49,004 nucleotides of DNA, taken from a virus. Of the stretch, positions 18,555 to 49,004 are shown piece after piece (positions within the stretch are counted from its first letter, which is position 1; each line of letters begins with the position of its first letter). The stretch covers positions 1 through 49,004 of IMG/VR virus record IMGVR_UViG_3300013307_000009; one strand, written 5' to 3'. Made by a program: the position numbers and the translations under genes. The notes beneath the pieces were generated by a model, which was not told where the DNA came from, did no database searches, and was given only the letters and a program-made list of their open reading frames with translations.

Positions 18555-21127
18555 TAGTAACGCCTGCCTTTCCCACCCTTGCCGCGACCGCCCCGCTTGC
18601 GCTTGCGGGTATTAGCCATCGGCGCGAAAGCCCGGTTGGTGCTTTCAAAAACAGGGGTGTCAATAAGCTGGCCGTGCAGCCCGGCTGGTCCTAAGAGGGC
18701 CGGGGGAACCCCGGTGCGCCCCGGCCCGAACTGGGAGAGTGGTTGGACGGGTCGGTCGGCCTGGCCCGGAGCCTTCGCAAAGTCACGGGGTAGACCGCCC
18801 GGCATCCCTGGCGCGGTCGGGGCCGCTCCCGGTGGCATCGGCAGGCCCGGTGGCAGGGGTCCAGAGGGTGCGCCCATCGGCGGTAATGGTCCTCTGCCAG
18901 CCATAGGTGGGCCAGGCGGTGGCATCATTCCCGGTGGCGGCATCCCAGGAGGCGGGAGGCTCGGCGGGAGGCCAGGTGGTGGACTCATCGAAGGTGGCAA
19001 CCCCATACTCCCGGAGCCTGCGGAAGGCGGCGGGGTCGGCCCCTGGGTCGGCGTTGAAGAATTGCCAGTCAGGGTAGCCATCGCGTCGCCGCCTGGGGCG
19101 TTGGTCTTCGCCACTTCTTCCATCACCTGCTGGATTGTCGCCTGGATTTTCGCGTCCTTTGCGTCCTGGGGAAGCTGGGCGAAGTCCTGCTCTATCTTCC
19201 GGTGCTGCATTTCGTCTTCGAGTTCGTCTTCCACCAGGGTATTTTTTTCGGTCCATTTGTATTTGTCTTTCAGGTACTTGTTGACCGCTTCCAACGCTGC
19301 CACTTCGATAGCGGGCTGGATAACACTCTGCTCGGTCTTGACCTTTTCGGAGATGGTCTGCTCGATAATCTTGGCCGGGTCCGGCTCGTCCAGGATGCGG
19401 CCAATCAAAAACTCGTCCGAGAAACTGCCCAGTTTTTGCAGGGCCGCGAAAGCGGTTACGCTCACTTGGTCTTTAAGCCCGTTCTTTAGTTTCAGTTCAA
19501 CCTCAACGTTCGGCACGTAACCCTTCAAAGCCTCGGCCTTGTATTCCAGGGTGTAAGCCCCACCGAAAGCCCGGCCATCCCCGGCCACAAACACTTCCTC
19601 GTCGCCGCCCCTGGTCACAAGGATACGGGTGGCGGTTTCGATATAGTTCGCCAACGAGTTTTGAATTTTGCGGGACAGCACGCCCTCACGCTTGGTTCCC
19701 TGAGCCAACGCCGCCTCATAGCCCCTGGCCGAGGTCGGCATCCGGGTATTGCCGCCCACGCCCGTAAAAGTGGCCGCGTTTATCGAGTTACCAAACTCGG
19801 AGAAGACCGCCATAAACTCAGGCGGCATCGGCGGCGGTTGGGGTATCTCGACCTTTTCCTGACCGTCCGGCGAAAGAAAGAGGGTATCGCCCTGCTTGGC
19901 ATCTTTGAAATAGCCCTGGTTCTCGGTGTAGATGTAGGTGGTCGGCCTGGCCCAACGGTCCACGCCCAGGTGCATCAAATTGCGGTAGCGGGAGCGGTCA
20001 ATCCAGTCGTTGTAAATCGGGTAGAGGAAGGGGTAGTAAACCACCCGCCCGCCGACTAAAGTATCCGGGGTATCGCCGCTCCCGTAGTCGCGTCCCACGT
20101 CGGTGGTCGCCCTGGCGGTGGGTGAGAGCGGTTCCTCGAAGCAGCCTTCCAGGTGGAAAGGCACCCCGCCCAGCCCGTGTTTTTGCAGACCCAGGTAAGG
20201 GTCGTCTTCCAAATCCTTCGTGGTGTAGAAAAGACTGGTCAGGTTTCCGTCGCGGCTGTCCGATTTTCGCTTTGCCAGGACCGGGTTAAAGCTGGCGGCG
20301 GAACCGGACACGTGGGACGCGCTTATCATCAGGGACGTGGTAGTGTCGTCGTAGTAGCGCACCACGTCAAAGGCGCAGGTGTCCAGGTTGTGGCCGGGCC
20401 GGGTGTAATCGTCCCAACGGCTGCTGCCCCGGTTGGGGGTCTGCTCGGCCTCGTATATCTCGCGCACGCCCTCAAAGTCGTAGAAGTTCTGGACCAACTG
20501 CTCGCCCGTAATCCGTTCCAGGTAAAAGCCGTAGACCACCTGGCGTTGGGCATCCAACCGGGGGTAGAAGTTCATCGGGTCCAGCACCCGCAGCTTGAAG
20601 GGGTTGTTGCCCTGTTTTAAGAGAGCCGAGTCAAAGGTAGTCAGGGTCGGTAGCCAGCCTGTCACCACCAGCTTGTTGCACATATCCATCGGCACATCGG
20701 CCTGCTTAATCACGGTGTCGAGCAAAGCCTGGCCGAAACGCTTGTGTTCGTTGATGCGTGGCTCGGTGTGGGACACGCAGGTCGGGTAGCTTTCGCAGTA
20801 AGGGTGCATATCGGCAATCATCGCCTGGGCGAGGGTTACGATAACATAGGGGGTGTTGTCTACGGTGTAGTCAATATCGCCGTCGGCCTTGACCCTGGCC
20901 TCGTTATCTTGCTGCCCGTCCTTGTCCACCGAGAAAGGATTGTCCAACCGGGCCATTTTGATGTGGCGGGTGAAAACGGTATCGCGTTCCTCGAACCACT
21001 CCTGTAGGGAGCGGAAGCGGTTGGTCAGGCCGTTCGCGCTGGGGGTCCGGGTGAAGCGGCCCTGGCTGGCCCGTTTTTTGTCCAAAGCCCGAACGCTATT
21101 TTTGTTTAAGAGGTCGCTTGCCGCCAT
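18554..21127 (-). CDS. Portal protein with long Pro-rich C-terminal extension, 857 aa
   Basis: The gene directly follows the large terminase (TAATG overlap), as portals usually do. The size and the segment RVLDPMNFYPRLD (residue about 185) suit podovirus-type portals, where a D-P-x-x-F-x-P turn is common. A ring of twelve copies would form the DNA entry vertex and bind terminase. Residues up to about 690 look like the folded body with a helical, Glu/Lys-rich crown region (about 600-680). The remainder is unusual: about 100 residues of Pro/Gly/Met repeats, then a strongly basic tail (TRKRKRGGRGKGGKGRRY). Confidence 0.8.
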   Translation of the reverse strand: MAASDLLNKNSVRALDKKRASQGRFTRTPSANGLTNRFRSLQEWFEERDTVFTRHIKMARLDNPFSVDKDGQQDNEARVKADGDIDYTVDNTPYVIVTLAQAMIADMHPYCESYPTCVSHTEPRINEHKRFGQALLDTVIKQADVPMDMCNKLVVTGWLPTLTTFDSALLKQGNNPFKLRVLDPMNFYPRLDAQRQVVYGFYLERITGEQLVQNFYDFEGVREIYEAEQTPNRGSSRWDDYTRPGHNLDTCAFDVVRYYDDTTTSLMISASHVSGSAASFNPVLAKRKSDSRDGNLTSLFYTTKDLEDDPYLGLQKHGLGGVPFHLEGCFEEPLSPTARATTDVGRDYGSGDTPDTLVGGRVVYYPFLYPIYNDWIDRSRYRNLMHLGVDRWARPTTYIYTENQGYFKDAKQGDTLFLSPDGQEKVEIPQPPPMPPEFMAVFSEFGNSINAATFTGVGGNTRMPTSARGYEAALAQGTKREGVLSRKIQNSLANYIETATRILVTRGGDEEVFVAGDGRAFGGAYTLEYKAEALKGYVPNVEVELKLKNGLKDQVSVTAFAALQKLGSFSDEFLIGRILDEPDPAKIIEQTISEKVKTEQSVIQPAIEVAALEAVNKYLKDKYKWTEKNTLVEDELEDEMQHRKIEQDFAQLPQDAKDAKIQATIQQVMEEVAKTNAPGGDAMATLTGNSSTPTQGPTPPPSAGSGSMGLPPSMSPPPGLPPSLPPPGMPPPGMMPPPGPPMAGRGPLPPMGAPSGPLPPGLPMPPGAAPTAPGMPGGLPRDFAKAPGQADRPVQPLSQFGPGRTGVPPALLGPAGLHGQLIDTPVFESTNRAFAPMANTRKRKRGGRGKGGKGRRY

Positions 21128-22656
21128 TAACCTATTCTCCTAATTCTCAACGGGTTGGCGTTGTGCAGCACAAGCTCCCGGTAGGTGCTGTCGTCGTGCC
21201 AGATGTCTTCGGTAATCGCAAAGGCTTCCAGGGCAGTACAGGCGTGAGAGGCCCAGTTGTGGGCCGGGCTGTCGTTGGCGGTGGTGTAGTTGCCGTAGGG
21301 GTCGCGTTCGTGGTATTTGTAGGCTTCCATACTCTTGATAAACCACTCACAGCTTTCGTCCACGTGCAAACGGTCCAGAAGGTTACGCACCGATTGAACC
21401 CGGTCCTTCATCACCTGCCAGCGCGTGGTGTTGCACTTAGGCCGGATACCGTACTCTTTAAGCACCTTGAAAAGGCTGCCGTCACTTAGCTGGGTGCGGT
21501 TGCGCCCGGAAGGGTCGCCAAAATTTATAACGGGCCGCCGCATCGTGTGGGCGTAGTCGTAGGCCTGCTGGAAGTTATCGGGGATAAAGTAAGGGTTGGG
21601 GAAAAGCGTCACCCCCGGATAGAAGTTTAAGAACCACTTTATTTCCTGCTTGGAAGCGCAAACCTCGTTGACAAGGTACAGCTTATCGCCGTCGTCGAAG
21701 TCCTTTTGTAGAAAACCCATATAGGTTTCGTCCGAGTATCCCCAGTCCCAGAATATCGCCAGGGGCAGGTCCGGGTTGTAGGGGTAGTCGCCCACGTGCC
21801 TGGCCCGGTTAAAAGCGGCGTAGACGCGCCCGGCAGTTGAGGCGGTGCGGTCCATCAGATACTCCCTGGCCCAGATGAGGGCATCGGTGTGAGCTTCTTT
21901 GTCGGCCCGCCACTGGGGAGTATAGTTCTCGTTTTCTTCCATCGTGTAGGTGATAAGCCGCTTGGCCTCGGCAGCCCGGTCAATCAGTTCGGTGAAGTGG
22001 TCTACGTTCGCGTTGAGGGTGGAGATGGCAATCACGAAGCTGGTCACGCCCAGGACGCTATCAAAGACCGGGTAGGCCCAACGCGCATACTCGTCAATGA
22101 GAACCCCGGTGCCGCGATTGGAATGGCCGAAGTTGGCGTTGGCACTTTCGCCTGTAAAGTAAGAGTGGTTCTCCGGGTTGATGAGTAGCATCTTCTGGCG
22201 GTGGATACTGCGGTCAAAGCCTTCCGGCAGTAGCTGGGGCGGCAGGTGTTCCACGAAACCGTCCAGCTTGGCAAAGAGCGTAGTCCTCTTTTTGCCCCCG
22301 GCGTAATCCACTTCTTCTTCCTTGCGGCTGCCGAGTAGCCCGATAAAGTTAGGGGTAAAGGTCCACAGCCAGAAAAAGAAAGCCTCGACCACGTAGGTGC
22401 CGCCCACGCCCCTGGCCTTGAACATCACCCGCCACTCGTCCTTGCGGTAGGCTTCCCACAATTCGCCCACAATCCTGACCTGGGCTTTCCACAGCTTGAA
22501 TGGTTTCCAGCCCGGTCCTTCGGTATTAAATTGTTTCTGGGGTTCTTCTATCCACAGCCACTTGGAAATAAAGCGCACGGGGTTCTCCCGGCAAGCCTTA
22601 CGCTCCGACTCCCACCAGACCCGTTCAAATTCATCCAGGTCATTGTCAATTGTCAA
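21127..22656 (-). CDS. terL: Terminase large subunit, 509 aa
   Basis: The protein is the packaging motor ATPase and nuclease. The Walker A-like segment is KARGVGGTY (residues 80-88), an atypical version lacking the usual Lys-Ser/Thr end. Walker B is GVLIDEY with Asp188-Glu189. The nuclease domain shows FWDWGYSDET (Asp304) and FGDPSG (Asp381), the usual acidic positions of RNase H-like terminases. At the C-terminal end NWASHACTALEAF replaces the usual DHxxDALRY-like motif, so one metal ligand looks different. The start is a TTG at 22656 with AAGGAG about 10 nt upstream. Portal follows in TAATG overlap. Confidence 0.9.
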   Translation of the reverse strand: MTIDNDLDEFERVWWESERKACRENPVRFISKWLWIEEPQKQFNTEGPGWKPFKLWKAQVRIVGELWEAYRKDEWRVMFKARGVGGTYVVEAFFFWLWTFTPNFIGLLGSRKEEEVDYAGGKKRTTLFAKLDGFVEHLPPQLLPEGFDRSIHRQKMLLINPENHSYFTGESANANFGHSNRGTGVLIDEYARWAYPVFDSVLGVTSFVIAISTLNANVDHFTELIDRAAEAKRLITYTMEENENYTPQWRADKEAHTDALIWAREYLMDRTASTAGRVYAAFNRARHVGDYPYNPDLPLAIFWDWGYSDETYMGFLQKDFDDGDKLYLVNEVCASKQEIKWFLNFYPGVTLFPNPYFIPDNFQQAYDYAHTMRRPVINFGDPSGRNRTQLSDGSLFKVLKEYGIRPKCNTTRWQVMKDRVQSVRNLLDRLHVDESCEWFIKSMEAYKYHERDPYGNYTTANDSPAHNWASHACTALEAFAITEDIWHDDSTYRELVLHNANPLRIRRIG

Positions 22657-26210: not shown

Positions 26211-28028
26211 ATGGCAAAACAACCCTTTAATCGGAGAAACCCCTGCCCCTTGTGCGGTGGGTACGACGACAGGAGCCTGGGTGAACGAAGATGTCACGGC
26301 TACCAGGAAGGTGATTGGGTCCATTGTCGGAGGGCCGACCTTTCTCCGAATATCCAATACTCCGAAGCCTCAGACACTTACGCGCACCTCTGGACCGACA
26401 AACCCTGTTTTTGCGGCCAGGTCCACCAACCCTCGGCTGCACCAAGTACGACAACACCCCAGCTAAGACTGGTTGCCAGGTGGAAGTATTACGACCTCAA
26501 CGGCAACCTCGATACCGAAGTCAGACGCTACCAAAGGGCTGACGGAAGCAAAGATTACAGGCAGTACCACCCCGACCCCACAGGCGAAATGAAGCCGGGG
26601 GCCGGGCCAGTCCAATACCTGCTTTACCGCTACAACGAACTCAAAGACCTGCCCAAAGACCGGGCCTGGCTGCTCGTAGAGGGCGAGAAAGCGGTAGACT
26701 CCTGTATTGCGCGTGGCATCCCCGCCACCTGCAATATAGGAGGGGCTGGCAAATGGCACGACTCTTACACAGCACTCCTGGCCGGGCGCAAGCTGATAAT
26801 CATCCCCGACAACGACCCGGAAGTGGACGAAAGAGGCAAGGAACACCGCAAGGGCCAGAAACACGCCCAGATGGTTTTCGATAAGCTAAAGGGTGTGGCC
26901 GACTTAAAGCTGATGCCGCCGATGCCGGACGTTGGTGAGAAGGGTGACATCGCTGACTGGTGGGAAGCGGGCAAGACGGTAGACGACCTTTACAACTGGG
27001 TAAAGACGGTCGAATGGGTCAACCGCCCCCGGCACCGCTACCACGAAAGTGAGCTTGAACTGCTACCGCCCATTGAGTGGCTGCTCAGGCCATTTATCCA
27101 GGACCGGGCCATCAATATGGTTTCCGGCCCCAGTGGAAGCGGCAAAAGCTACGTTGCTTTGCACTGGGCTAAGGAATTAGGCCGACGCTACAACGTGCTT
27201 TACCTGGCCGCCGAAGATGCCAGCCAGTACCCGGAGCGGGTCAAGGCGTGGAACATCTACAACAGGTTTGAGGCAAAAGAAGGGCATTTCTACCTGGAAA
27301 CCCTGCCGATAAACCTGATAAACCCACAGGATGCCGACAGGCTGATTGCCGAGAACGACGATATTAAACCCCGCTTTGTAGTAATAGATACCTACGCGGC
27401 TGCAACCCCCGGCAGTAACGAAAATGACAACGGCCAAATAGAGCTAATCCTGGGTAACGCCCGGAAGTTTATTGCGGCCTGGGGCTGCGCCGTCCTGGTG
27501 GTCCACCACTTCAACAAGGCCGAAACAGCCGAGCGCGGCGGGTCAGCCTTACGAGCCGGGATTGTCCAGACCATGCAGGTCACGCTGGACCAGGACACCC
27601 TCAAACTGACGATGGATAAAACCCGCAACGCCGAGAAGACCGAGGACGTTTTCTTCAAGTTTGAGAAGGTAGCTATCCCGGTCAAGCTGTCGGACGGCAC
27701 CACTGAAATCCGCACCCAGCGCGTCCCGGTCCAGACCGACCACGCTGAAACCGACTTCACCACCATTACCCCGGCGCAGATGGCAATACTTAAATATATG
27801 GGCGCACTCATCCGGCGTGACAACGAACACCGCAAGGTGGACATTGAGCAGGCCACCAACCAGCCTACCCGGACGGTAGGTGACAGTATGGCGAAGCTGA
27901 TAACGATGAAGCTGGTAGTACAACCCAAAGAACGCGGGCCTTATCGGATTACCGAACAGGGCTTGGTTGCGGGTGGGTATATACCGAACGATTTGAAGTT
28001 GGTTATCCAGGAAGTTAAGAACTGGTGA
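26211..28028 (+). CDS. Primase-helicase: zinc finger, Toprim and RepA-type ATPase, 605 aa
   Basis: Residues 12-39 hold a CxxC...C...C zinc finger (Cys12, Cys15, Cys28, Cys39). A Toprim-like part follows with LLVEGEKAVDSC (Glu158) and IIIPDNDP (Asp200, Asp202). The RecA-type ATPase has Walker A GPSGSGKS (306-313) and Walker B RFVVIDTY (Asp393), with LVVHHFNK near 430 as a sensor region; this suits the hexameric RepA-like helicase family. The C-terminal 90 residues look like a winged helix. It would prime and unwind at the origin, and the repeat cluster just downstream fits that. Confidence 0.9.
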   Translation: MAKQPFNRRNPCPLCGGYDDRSLGERRCHGYQEGDWVHCRRADLSPNIQYSEASDTYAHLWTDKPCFCGQVHQPSAAPSTTTPQLRLVARWKYYDLNGNLDTEVRRYQRADGSKDYRQYHPDPTGEMKPGAGPVQYLLYRYNELKDLPKDRAWLLVEGEKAVDSCIARGIPATCNIGGAGKWHDSYTALLAGRKLIIIPDNDPEVDERGKEHRKGQKHAQMVFDKLKGVADLKLMPPMPDVGEKGDIADWWEAGKTVDDLYNWVKTVEWVNRPRHRYHESELELLPPIEWLLRPFIQDRAINMVSGPSGSGKSYVALHWAKELGRRYNVLYLAAEDASQYPERVKAWNIYNRFEAKEGHFYLETLPINLINPQDADRLIAENDDIKPRFVVIDTYAAATPGSNENDNGQIELILGNARKFIAAWGCAVLVVHHFNKAETAERGGSALRAGIVQTMQVTLDQDTLKLTMDKTRNAEKTEDVFFKFEKVAIPVKLSDGTTEIRTQRVPVQTDHAETDFTTITPAQMAILKYMGALIRRDNEHRKVDIEQATNQPTRTVGDSMAKLITMKLVVQPKERGPYRITEQGLVAGGYIPNDLKLVIQEVKNW

Positions 28029-28195
28029 ATAGGCATGCTTAAGCAAAGGATAGGCAATGCCTATGCCTATTGTCATATAAAAATGACATAGGCAATAGTA
28101 ATGTATATGTTAGTGCCTATGCCTATTGCCTATTGCTTTTTTGAGGCTAAAATGGGTACTTTGGAGGACCGATAGGCAAAAGGTCTTTTGCCTAT
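28029..28195. repeat. Ten ATAGGCA/TGCCTAT boxes: candidate origin iterons
   Basis: Ten exact 7-bp copies lie in 167 bp: ATAGGCA at 28029, 28050, 28088 and 28172; TGCCTAT at 28058, 28064, 28114, 28120, 28127 and 28189. Several overlap or abut, and an inverted pair forms a hairpin (28065-28076 with 28083-28093; one bulged T). The cluster follows the primase-helicase gene and is AT-rich in its middle. Clustered boxes beside a replication gene are typical of origins bound by an initiator, or of a strong operator. Which protein binds is unknown. Confidence 0.75.
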
Positions 28196-28200
28196 CTTTT
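28171..28200 (+). terminator. Perfect 12-bp palindrome with T run
   Basis: GATAGGCAAAAG (28171-28182) and CTTTTGCCTATC (28185-28196) are perfect inverted copies with only a 2-nt centre, followed by TTTT. It contains the last two boxes of the repeat cluster. In RNA it could be a terminator; in DNA it could be a dimer-binding site. It lies 22 nt before the next gene. Confidence 0.55.
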
Positions 28201-28217: not shown

Positions 28218-28475
28218 ATGGACACGAAGATAGGGCCGGAAAGTAAGAAGTTTCTGGAAGCCCGCCAGCACTCCGAACAGATTGGGGAGTTTATGGACTG
28301 GCTGACCCAGGAGAAGGGTTTGGTGCTGGGCTTCTGGGAAGGCGACGAGATTTACCCCTACACCGCCAATATCAACAAACTGCTCTACGAGTTCTTCGGA
28401 ATTAACGAGCAAGCGTTAGAGGCCGAGAGGCGTGAGATATTAAAACAGTACCGGGAGGCGCAAGATGGACAGTAG
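28218..28475 (+). CDS. Unknown small early protein, 85 aa
   Basis: The ATG at 28218 has AGAAAGGA about 7 nt upstream; the in-frame ATG at 28188 is inside the palindrome and is not used here. The sequence is helical, with an aromatic core region (MDWLTQEKGLVLGFWEG). It ends 11 nt into the next gene. This small type (about 85 residues with a short acidic C-terminus) recurs in phage small-gene arrays, but I cannot assign a job. Confidence 0.7.
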   Translation: MDTKIGPESKKFLEARQHSEQIGEFMDWLTQEKGLVLGFWEGDEIYPYTANINKLLYEFFGINEQALEAERREILKQYREAQDGQ

Positions 28476-29770: not shown

Positions 29771-29820
29771 ATAAAAACGCCCCGGCCTACTCTACCTGGA
29801 CGTTTACCAAAAATATTAAC

Positions 29821-29847
29821 CCAGTAATCCCTTAAAGGGTTATCTGG
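29821..29847 (+). terminator. Imperfect hairpin after the 262-aa gene
   Basis: CCAG-TAA-CCCTT pairs with AAGGG-TTA-CTGG, with one bulged T on each arm. It lies 50 nt after the stop codon and is followed by TTGTTAG rather than a clean T run. A weak terminator or processing site is likely. Confidence 0.45.
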
Positions 29848-29887
29848 TTGTTAGTATAGGGGTACAGTAACGAACAAAAAACGTGAT

Positions 29888-29952
29888 GTTCCACAGGTGG
29901 CGGTTGTTGCTATAAACCAGCATTTGGTTTGCTGTACGCCACCTTCAGGAAC
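29888..29952 (+). promoter_or_regulatory. Nested stem structure upstream of a small-gene block
   Basis: Three nested inverted pairs line up: GTTCC (29888-29892) with GGAAC (29948-29952); GGTGGCG (29896-29902) with CGCCACC (29937-29943); and AAACCA (29914-29919) with TGGTTT (29925-29930). Together they could form a long bulged hairpin in RNA or a cruciform in DNA. No tRNA or known riboswitch pattern matches. It is 48 nt ahead of the next gene's ATG. Confidence 0.5.
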
Positions 29953-29968
29953 AATTCTATTATAGCAG

Positions 29969-29987
29969 GTTGCAACGCTATTGCAAC
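29969..29987. promoter_or_regulatory. Perfect inverted-repeat operator candidate
   Basis: GTTGCAA (29969-29975) and TTGCAAC (29981-29987) flank a 5-bp centre, giving a 19-bp site of typical repressor-operator size. A possible -10 box (TATTAT, 29958-29963) lies just upstream, although no good -35 box is seen. The site would cover the start of a transcript for the following gene. Confidence 0.5.
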
Positions 29988-29999
29988 AGGAAGGTCAAT

Positions 30000-30311
30000 A
30001 TGACAGACATACCCGAAAGAAAGTGTTTAGAGTGTGGTGGGATTATCCCAGCCGTAATCAAGTGGCGTGGGGGCCACCTCTCGGCCTACTGTAAGGAATG
30101 TGTAAGAAGCCGCAGGCTAAAGCGTTACTCGAACTACTACAAGGACAACCGGGAGTATTTTGCCCAGTACCACCGGGACTGGAAGCTGGTGAACTGGGAA
30201 CGTTACCTGGAAATGCAGCGCGAGGGCAACCGGGCGGCCTACTGGCGGCGTAAGGAAAAGCTGGGCAAGAAGCGGGTCCGGCGCAGCCAGTACGGTGAGC
30301 CGGAGAAATAA
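30000..30311 (+). CDS. Basic zinc-ribbon protein, 103 aa
   Basis: Two CxxC pairs (Cys10-Cys13 and Cys32-Cys35, counted from the ATG at 30000) form a probable zinc ribbon; a long basic helix with many Arg, Tyr and Lys residues follows. The layout C-x-x-C-G-G then C-K-E-C followed by R-x-x-x-Y resembles the recombination endonuclease VII or HNH-type small zinc proteins, but the nuclease His/Asn part is not visible. AGGAAGG lies about 6 nt before the ATG. Nucleic-acid binding is likely. Confidence 0.65.
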   Translation: MTDIPERKCLECGGIIPAVIKWRGGHLSAYCKECVRSRRLKRYSNYYKDNREYFAQYHRDWKLVNWERYLEMQREGNRAAYWRRKEKLGKKRVRRSQYGEPEK

Positions 30312-31112: not shown

Positions 31113-31193
31113 AAAAAAAGAAGGGCTGGTCGCGGTTAGAACGACCAGCCCACCAGCACGCTAACTATAGAGTTACGCACTATCTTGAAATTC
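31113..31193 (-). ncRNA. Candidate leftward small RNA, about 80 nt
   Basis: On the minus strand a -10 box TATAAT (31205-31200) and a -35-like TTAATA (31228-31223) have a 17-nt spacer. About 80 nt downstream lies a perfect 10-bp hairpin (31151-31142 with 31132-31123) followed by TTCTTTTTTT, a textbook intrinsic terminator. No open frame of use lies between. No leftward gene is near, so a short RNA is the most economical reading. Expression is not proven. Confidence 0.5.
31123..31151 (-). terminator. Leftward intrinsic terminator
   Basis: GGGCTGGTCG and CGACCAGCCC form a perfect 10-bp stem with a 9-nt loop. On the minus strand it is followed by a T-rich run (31122-31113), and on the plus strand by none. 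It is thus oriented against the surrounding rightward genes. Confidence 0.75.
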
Positions 31194-31199
31194 CCCCTT

Positions 31200-31228
31200 A
31201 TTATACCATTTATTTTCCCATTTATTAA
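31200..31228 (-). promoter_or_regulatory. Leftward promoter candidate
   Basis: On the minus strand TTAATA, a 17-nt spacer and a perfect TATAAT. It would feed the candidate small RNA ending at the leftward terminator. The -35 box is weak; the -10 box is exact. Confidence 0.5.
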
Positions 31229-31289
31229 CAAAACGCCGTCTATTTTTATAGTGTATATTTTTGTGACACCAGGACAGAATAATAGGTAA

Positions 31290-31480
31290 CAGATGATGAT
31301 GGTGATACTCGTACTAAAGGTGGTAATGGTACTGGTAGTAATGATGCTGGTGTTGGTGGTGGTGGTGGCGTTTGTGTGTGGTGTGTGTGTGTCTTTCTTC
31401 TGTGGCTTTGGTCTGGTTGTTTGCCTGGTTGGTTGGTTGGTCCTGTGTCCTGTGAGCCTGGTTAGCCGTGCGCGTGCCTG
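31290..31480. repeat. G/T-rich low-complexity tract
   Basis: The plus strand is almost only G and T here, with short repeats such as GGTGGTGGTGGTGG (31355-31368 region), GTGTGTGTG and GGTTGGTTGGTTGG (about 31427-31440). A 73-codon open frame of Val/Leu/Gly/Phe/Cys crosses it, but its amino-acid make-up is what such a composition forces, so I do not call a gene. A weak rightward promoter (TTAACA, 16 nt, TATAGT at 31225-31252) lies ahead. Possible roles: strand-opening region, R-loop or packaging-related site. Confidence 0.55.
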
Positions 31481-31593
31481 CCTGCCGGGGCCGAGCGCAG
31501 CGAGGCCACCATAGGTTTAGCCCATTGCAATGCCCTATCCTCACATTCCAGGTGGGTCACTAAAGATATTATACATTATCTTGACTAACTTGA

Positions 31594-31632
31594 TTAGCCT
31601 GACTAACCGTTAGCCTATGCAATCTTTAGCCT
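31594..31632 (+). repeat. TTAGCCT boxes spaced exactly 16 nt
   Basis: TTAGCCT begins at 31594, 31610 and 31626, a regular 16-nt period. A fourth exact copy lies at 31757, and TTAGCC without the final T lies at 31515 and 31462. The direct repeat TGACTAAC (31582 and 31600) precedes two of them. Regular spacing suggests a protein binding several sites in register. Confidence 0.6.
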
Positions 31633-31934
31633 GATGCTAACATATCGTATGCTGCCGGATGTCACGCCAGCCCCGTTACTTACTTTTAGTATGCACGTAA
31701 CTACGCAAGTATTCAAGTATGTAATTAGCTATAACAACATTTCTACCCACGAACTATTAGCCTACCGCTAAGTAATAGCCGGGTGCGCCGGGACACCCTG
31801 GCCGCCAGGTGATGAGTACAATCTACCCCTACCAGAACAAATCATCTACCCGCTACCAAATTTTATTAGGTACGGGCGGTAGCCTTGCCTATCATTCGTA
31901 GCTAAACACGCGGAAAAAACGTTCAAATTGGGGC

Positions 31935-48652: not shown

Positions 48653-49004
48653 TTACGGTAGGGCCAGTATCGCCGTCTTAACTATCGCCGCCGCAATCGC
48701 CGCCCCCGCCACCGTCCAGTGAGTTTTGTCCGTCTGGTAATTCGTCGCGTTGTTCTGGTCGTTCACGCTGCCTATCCCGTTCCCGCTTGCCCCAAAGTCC
48801 GCGACGGCGTGGGCAAAGCTCGCGTAGTTCGCTCGTATCCACGTGTTAAAGGTCTGGCGGGAAGTCTCGTACTCGTTGGCGAGGAAGGGGGTAACGGTGC
48901 AAACCACCACCTTGAACCCGGCGCTCTTGTAAGCGTTGCAAAGGGTCTGCATGCGCGGTTCAATCACCGTCGCCACGTCCACCCCGGAGAGCAGGTCGTT
49001 TATG
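48653..49004 (-). CDS. SGNH/GDSL esterase (C-terminal part)
   Basis: This is the C-terminal part of the esterase that begins at 989 on the left side. It includes the duplicated 123 bases at the right edge, so the real gene continues from base 1 to base 48881. The catalytic block V DKTH (Asp381, His384 in the joined protein) lies here, and the protein ends in an Ala/Ile-rich helix. The two fragments join without a frame change, which proves circularity or permutation. Confidence 0.85.
   Translation of the reverse strand, partial: INDLLSGVDVATVIEPRMQTLCNAYKSAGFKVVVCTVTPFLANEYETSRQTFNTWIRANYASFAHAVADFGASGNGIGSVNDQNNATNYQTDKTHWTVAGAAIAAAIVKTAILALP
48882..49004. repeat. Terminal direct repeat, right copy
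   Basis: The 123 bases are identical to 1-123. See the left copy. It marks the assembly overlap of a circular map rather than a repeat present in the virion. Confidence 0.95.

Follow-up and report, generated by a model that had tools for sequence, protein, structure and literature searches.

The window analysed here is a stretch of viral DNA of 49,004 nucleotides (IMG/VR record IMGVR_UViG_3300013307_000009). It begins and ends with an exact direct repeat of 123 bp (1-123 = 48882-49004), and is therefore a complete, circularly mapping genome of about 48.9 kb. The element under study is a putative replication origin, a cluster of ten copies of one 7-bp box. It lies in the 189-bp gap that separates a primase-helicase gene (stop codon 28026-28028) from the ATG of the next gene (28218), the first box beginning at 28029, immediately after the stop codon. 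The features of the locus are as follows.

26211-28028, + strand: primase-helicase gene, 605 amino acids (PF13481, E 3.7e-26; PHROG 239/906, primase-helicase)
27753-27983, + strand: coding segment for a putative box-binding winged-helix domain (about residues 515-591), from weak Pfam matches and homologues
28029-28195, both strands: cluster of ten exact copies of ATAGGCA/TGCCTAT (7 bp) in 167 bp, putative replication origin
28029, 28050, 28088, 28172, + strand: starts of the boxes in + orientation
28058, 28064, 28114, 28120, 28127, 28189, - strand: starts of the boxes in - orientation
28065-28093: AT-rich hairpin joining two boxes, GCCTATTGTCAT-ataaaa-ATGACATAGGC, with one bulged base
28071-28113: stretch of 74% AT between the first two box groups, candidate melting site by composition
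28171-28196: perfect inverted repeat made of two boxes, with 12-bp arms (28171-28182 and 28185-28196, 100% complementary) and a 2-nucleotide centre
28218-28475, + strand: next gene, 85-residue protein of unknown function (PHROG 21869), with AGAAAGGAA ahead of it as a likely ribosome-binding site

The box cluster and the primase-helicase gene

The original prediction described ten exact boxes in both orientations within 167 bp beside a primase-helicase gene, two of them in a perfect 12-bp palindrome and two in an AT-rich hairpin, at a density far beyond chance. All of these elements were located at the positions listed above, and the Pfam and PHROG matches bear out the identity of the neighbouring gene. 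When the gap was simulated 10,000 times with a first-order Markov model of the local dinucleotide make-up, the highest count of any 7-mer was five, reached once, against the ten seen here. Nor does the box recur at a similar density elsewhere in the genome: of the window's 15 copies, only five are outside the cluster, and these are scattered over the remaining 48.8 kb. Unrelated 7-mers reach at most four copies per 170 bp anywhere in the window, and where other 7-mers score high near 28.05 kb, they are the cluster itself read in a shifted register.

Six of the boxes form head-to-head or overlapping groups, namely ATAGGCA-A-TGCCTATGCCTAT (28050-28070) and TGCCTATGCCTATTGCCTAT (28114-28133). The inverted repeat at 28171-28196 has the top score among hairpins of its kind in the 300-bp windows tested, and the region around it also matches itself in reverse. 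None of 200 dinucleotide shuffles folds as well as the 189-bp gap does in single-stranded form (z -5.3). Scans for Rfam families and tRNAs gave no matches. The virus has a second record (L003; the L numbers denote loci in our survey), 99.3% identical, in which all ten boxes are present and 261 bp are identical across the cluster.

The primase-helicase has a Cys-rich zinc-finger-like motif (CPLCGG...) at its N-terminus, a TOPRIM-like region at about residues 130-265 and a RecA-type hexameric helicase at residues 284-475. A sequence-profile search of the PDB matches it to RepA of RSF1010 (1g8y, E 1.2e-17). The AlphaFold model has a mean predicted local distance difference test (pLDDT) score of 69, with the helicase and TOPRIM parts mostly above 70, and matches the structures of the T7 replisome (5ikn, E 3.8e-16), Twinkle and RSF1010 RepA (1nlf, E 1e-11). 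On the basis of these matches the helicase part can be placed with the RSF1010 RepA-type RecA helicases, and a hexamer is predicted.

The C-terminal segment gives weak Pfam matches to HTH_43 (E 0.0042) and HTH_27 (E 0.026), and a PDB sequence search with the C-terminus gave no meaningful match. The related C-terminal tails of loci from Chloroflexi and Gemmatimonadetes align with the tail of this protein, and one aligned homologue (L361) scores above the Pfam cut-off for HTH_IclR and HTH_24. This chain of homology, together with the covariation described below, supports the prediction of a C-terminal winged helix.

Box clusters behind homologous helicases

The same layout is found in other phages. 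In the public phages 1N2-2, CGphi29, KMB41, RHph_N65 and WOVitA1, box clusters lie directly after the homologous helicase gene, and each phage has a box of its own (CGGTACA, GGGGACA, CGGTTAC, GCGGAGA and AAGTTGGCA, respectively). Homologues were sampled by means of conserved helicase peptides, many of them on contigs of unknown host, and each 300-bp window was scored by the highest count of any 7-mer on both strands. For 29 non-redundant viral representatives, including the window, the mean was 5.1 copies downstream of the gene, compared with 2.3 both upstream and elsewhere. With the window and two loci known only from box searches set aside, there were 25 other non-redundant viral homologues, and in 13 of them the downstream window scored higher than any other of its locus (0.5 expected). 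An independent sample of bacterial-genome loci, from Proteobacteria, Actinobacteria, Chloroflexi and others, gave the same picture: the best window was downstream in 37 of 76 homologues (1.6 expected), and at least five copies were present downstream in 35 of the 76 and upstream in none (Wilcoxon p 4e-12). As a positive control, the same statistic finds seven copies of GTGAACA 3' of the alpha gene of P4.

The box differs in most homologues, and the clusters mostly have boxes in both orientations. For most representatives, no downstream protein is common to any other, and none is common to this phage and the relatives surveyed; the constant partner of the cluster is therefore the helicase gene. 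In two Chloroflexi loci, L296 (5943-6508) and L361 (5928-6347), the order is a winged-helix helicase, an iteron gap and a gene with a primase-type zinc finger. We count the primase-like character of this next gene, as judged by its zinc-finger motif, in favour of an origin.

The C-terminus is the least conserved part of the helicase proteins, with a mean pairwise identity of 18% as against 40% in the helicase. Among 41 box-positive homologues, box similarity is correlated with C-terminal similarity when the helicase core is controlled for (partial Mantel r 0.215, p 0.002), and is uncorrelated with the helicase core when the C-terminus is controlled for (r -0.004, p 0.5). This is the pattern expected if the C-terminal domain reads the box, and the comparison lends support to the proposal that origin specificity may be set by the C-terminal domain of the initiator. 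It is worth adding, as an anecdote and not as a test, that one Chloroflexi relative with an aligning tail has GATAGC boxes in both orientations, reminiscent of GATAGGCA in the window.

Several further observations concern boxes in other loci. A group of viruses including L115, L095, L140, L146, L160 and relatives has the exact ATAGGCA box in five or six copies, and the first of these overlaps the stop codon (TGATAGGCA). The primase-helicase of the L115 group is 27% identical to the window protein, the C-termini being only 13% identical in the alignment. Because of this low identity, and because the group was found by the box search itself, the shared box may be a coincidence and is given little weight. 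A search for box clusters that took no account of genes found six TGCCTAT boxes in both orientations in L093 (11076-11198). The helicase gene that these boxes directly follow is VapE-like (PF05272), and so of a different superfamily with the same box as the window. A box search requiring three same-strand copies returned mainly regularly spaced same-strand repeats. In L278, a primase-helicase homologue without a cluster behind it has eleven same-strand copies of AACTTGA upstream (2250-2550), possibly a relocated origin.

Many of the related loci also carry a hairpin of the form CCCT(A/T)nAGGG. The strict motif CCCT(A/T)1-6AGGG is present within 300 bp downstream in 35 of the 76 loci from genomes and 5 of the 29 from viruses, that is in 40 of 105 non-redundant relatives. 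It is absent from the 300 bp upstream in all 105, and has two matches in 861 kb of other sequence. A more general form, CCC..CT(A/T)nAG..GGG, stands beside the iterons in, for example, L326, L335, L371, L205 and L280, and no T run follows the hairpin in the listed examples. The cluster in the window does not have this hairpin, and has the inverted repeat made of boxes instead. The motif is matched only once in the window, by CCCTTAAAGGG at 29829, which falls in a second noncoding gap (29771-30000). This gap also contains imperfect hairpins and a longer inverted repeat, GTTCC..AGGTGGCG / CGCCACCT..GGAAC. Another noncoding stretch, at 31162-31763, is AT-rich, with AGGCTAA repeats and CA-rich simple repeats.

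The cluster as a probable replication origin

We consider it very probable that the cluster at 28029-28195 is the replication origin of the phage, or the essential recognition part of it, and that the boxes are sites for the primase-helicase encoded just upstream. The original prediction had offered an origin or a strong operator. The first of these is now well supported by comparison, through the clusters that recur 3' of homologous helicases, the matching layout of P4 crr, and the covariation with the C-terminus.

The most likely sequence of events would be that the boxes, some of them in head-to-head pairs, are bound by the predicted winged helix at the C-terminus; that helicase rings are loaded on both sides of the AT-rich stretch; that the strands open there; that the TOPRIM primase part primes; and that a polymerase of host or phage extends. 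We infer binding, ring loading, melting, priming and bidirectionality, with the steps after recognition modelled on P4, SaPI (Staphylococcus aureus pathogenicity island) and RSF1010 (PMC4234260, PMC7581432, PMC6092414). Similarly, the stretch at 28071-28113 is a candidate melting site by analogy with the origins of phage-inducible chromosomal islands (PICI) (PMC6092414).

Several points weigh against this assignment. About half of the homologues have no strong cluster in the 300 bp downstream. In the window protein itself the winged helix is only a weak profile match, and a single-sequence AlphaFold prediction of the segment gave a pLDDT of 42. Four promoter-like matches overlap the cluster (0.9 expected), and regulation may therefore be part of its function, with an added operator role for the downstream operon being possible; the operator is less likely to be the main role, since different phages have different genes downstream, in some cases on the other strand. 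Lastly, the GC-skew profile, which the original prediction had proposed as a check, does have its detrended cumulative minimum near the cluster, at 27,870, but the amplitude is not significant (p 0.18-0.45 by block shuffling) and the check is hence uninformative. A change-point test in the segment 22.7-40.3 kb points to 32.3 kb. For these two reasons GC skew was dropped as support for an origin.

In RSF1010 the iterons are bound by a separate protein, RepC (PMC4234260). By the same token, the boxes here could form an origin whose binder is a host factor or a small phage protein other than the primase-helicase, the latter being merely recruited, and it could be argued in favour of this that the window protein matches winged-helix families weakly. 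We consider this unlikely, however: box similarity specifically follows the helicase C-terminus, the loci have no other neighbouring gene in common, and if one host factor were responsible, the box would not be expected to change from phage to phage.

It is also quite unlikely that the boxes are primarily an operator, at which a repressor (a phage regulator or the primase-helicase itself) controls transcription of the operon starting at 28218. The cluster does lie in a promoter-sized gap ahead of a co-directional gene with a good ribosome-binding site, and some of the promoter-like matches noted above overlap boxes (TTGCCT at 28126, TTGTCA at 28070). However, the neighbour that is conserved across phages is the upstream helicase and not the downstream gene. 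In RHph_N65 the next gene is convergent, and no promoter is needed there; in 11 of the 35 box-positive genome loci the longest downstream open reading frame (ORF) is on the opposite strand. In addition, the box sequence tracks the helicase C-terminus, and ten operators in 167 bp would be unusual. As for the small ribbon-helix-helix protein that the original prediction had named as a possible partner, no member of that family was present among the window proteins scanned, which did not cover every small ORF.

The two remaining explanations are both very improbable. If the primase-helicase gene ended in a transcription terminator or an RNA structure, this would fit the strong single-strand folding and the 3' position. 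However, the sole terminator-like site lies on the other strand and is no more than shuffled sequence would give, the hairpin on the + strand has only four T after it, Rfam has no match, and ten copies of one box would not be needed. A partition site (parS-like) or a packaging signal built of repeats has a precedent in the repeated parS found immediately 3' of repA in some phages (PMC7157519), but no ParA or ParB family was found among the window proteins scanned (not every ORF was covered), the large terminase gene (a 509-residue ORF at 21127-22656, recognised from its own sequence) is about 5.4 kb from the cluster, and the covariation is with the helicase.

If the cluster is an origin, its wider significance would lie in the class that it may represent. 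We tentatively propose, with slightly less than even confidence, that a large class of self-contained rep-ori cassettes is built around the RecA-type helicases and primase-helicases (RepA/T7-gp4-like) that tailed phages and related genomic loci encode. In such a cassette the gene would be followed directly by an iteron origin, the box code would coevolve with the C-terminal domain, and in many the conserved CCCT(A/T)nAGGG hairpin beside the iterons could serve as a primer start. Most phages known only by sequence have unlabelled replication origins, and on this proposal the origins of many uncultured phages would be readable from sequence. The rule for prediction would be a cluster of short boxes 3' of a RepA-type helicase, which has a high rate in two differently drawn samples. 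The link between box and C-terminus would make initiator specificity directly testable by domain swaps in laboratory phages.

Comparison with known replication systems

The layout has close parallels. The alpha protein of the satellite phage P4 is a single polypeptide with a zinc-binding region, a TOPRIM primase, a helicase and a C-terminal origin-binding domain, and directly behind the alpha gene lies the crr site (X51522), annotated with ten 8-bp repeats that occur in both orientations. The window likewise has short repeats in both orientations directly 3' of its gene. However, the helicase of alpha is of the D5/SF3 type (D5_N, Pox_D5), whereas the window protein is of the AAA_25/RepA type, RecA-like as in RSF1010 RepA and T7 gp4, and the alignment between the two proteins is limited to the zinc-finger motif and Walker A. 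P4 also has a second repeat site, ori and crr being about 4.7 kb apart, whereas the window has one box cluster only. Judged by the descent of its helicase, the system is not a P4-type replicon.

The SaPI/PICI rep-ori cassettes are similar in layout, with an iteron origin directly 3' of the initiator helicase gene that is read by the C-terminal domain of the helicase (PMC7581432); in PICI origins, moreover, two sets of iterons flank an AT-rich stretch (PMC6092414). Both kinds of element are satellites, with Rep helicases that in SaPI come from other families (PMC7581432). The window, by contrast, is a complete tailed-phage genome, with a terminal repeat and a large terminase, and has a RecA-type primase-helicase; its cluster is thus not a satellite origin. 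Among the homologues surveyed here a comparable layout is widespread. A different helicase superfamily thus seems to share an arrangement that had been regarded as peculiar to phage satellites (PMC6092414), which points to convergence or exchange of modules.

Our literature search found no description of this origin class for RecA-type phage helicases, which is weak evidence given that subscription papers are poorly covered; with the same weakness as evidence, neither an ATAGGCA box in a relevant context nor the CCCT(A/T)nAGGG hairpin was found named.

The replication system of RSF1010 (IncQ), with RepA, RepB', RepC and oriV, resembles the window in having a RepA homologous to the helicase domain (1g8y) and in combining iterons with hairpins. 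It differs in that helicase, primase and iteron binder are three proteins (PMC4234260), whereas here they would be in one chain, the iteron binder being putative. ORF904 of pRN1 is a primase-helicase with a C-terminal winged helix, and its origin lies in the 166 bp downstream (PMC4234260), but it has an archaeo-eukaryotic primase and an SF3 helicase, and a 100-nucleotide stem-loop in place of iterons. From these comparisons, the best reading of the locus is that it fits a known kind, the iteron origin beside its own initiator, and would be a variant of it with a RecA-type phage primase-helicase.
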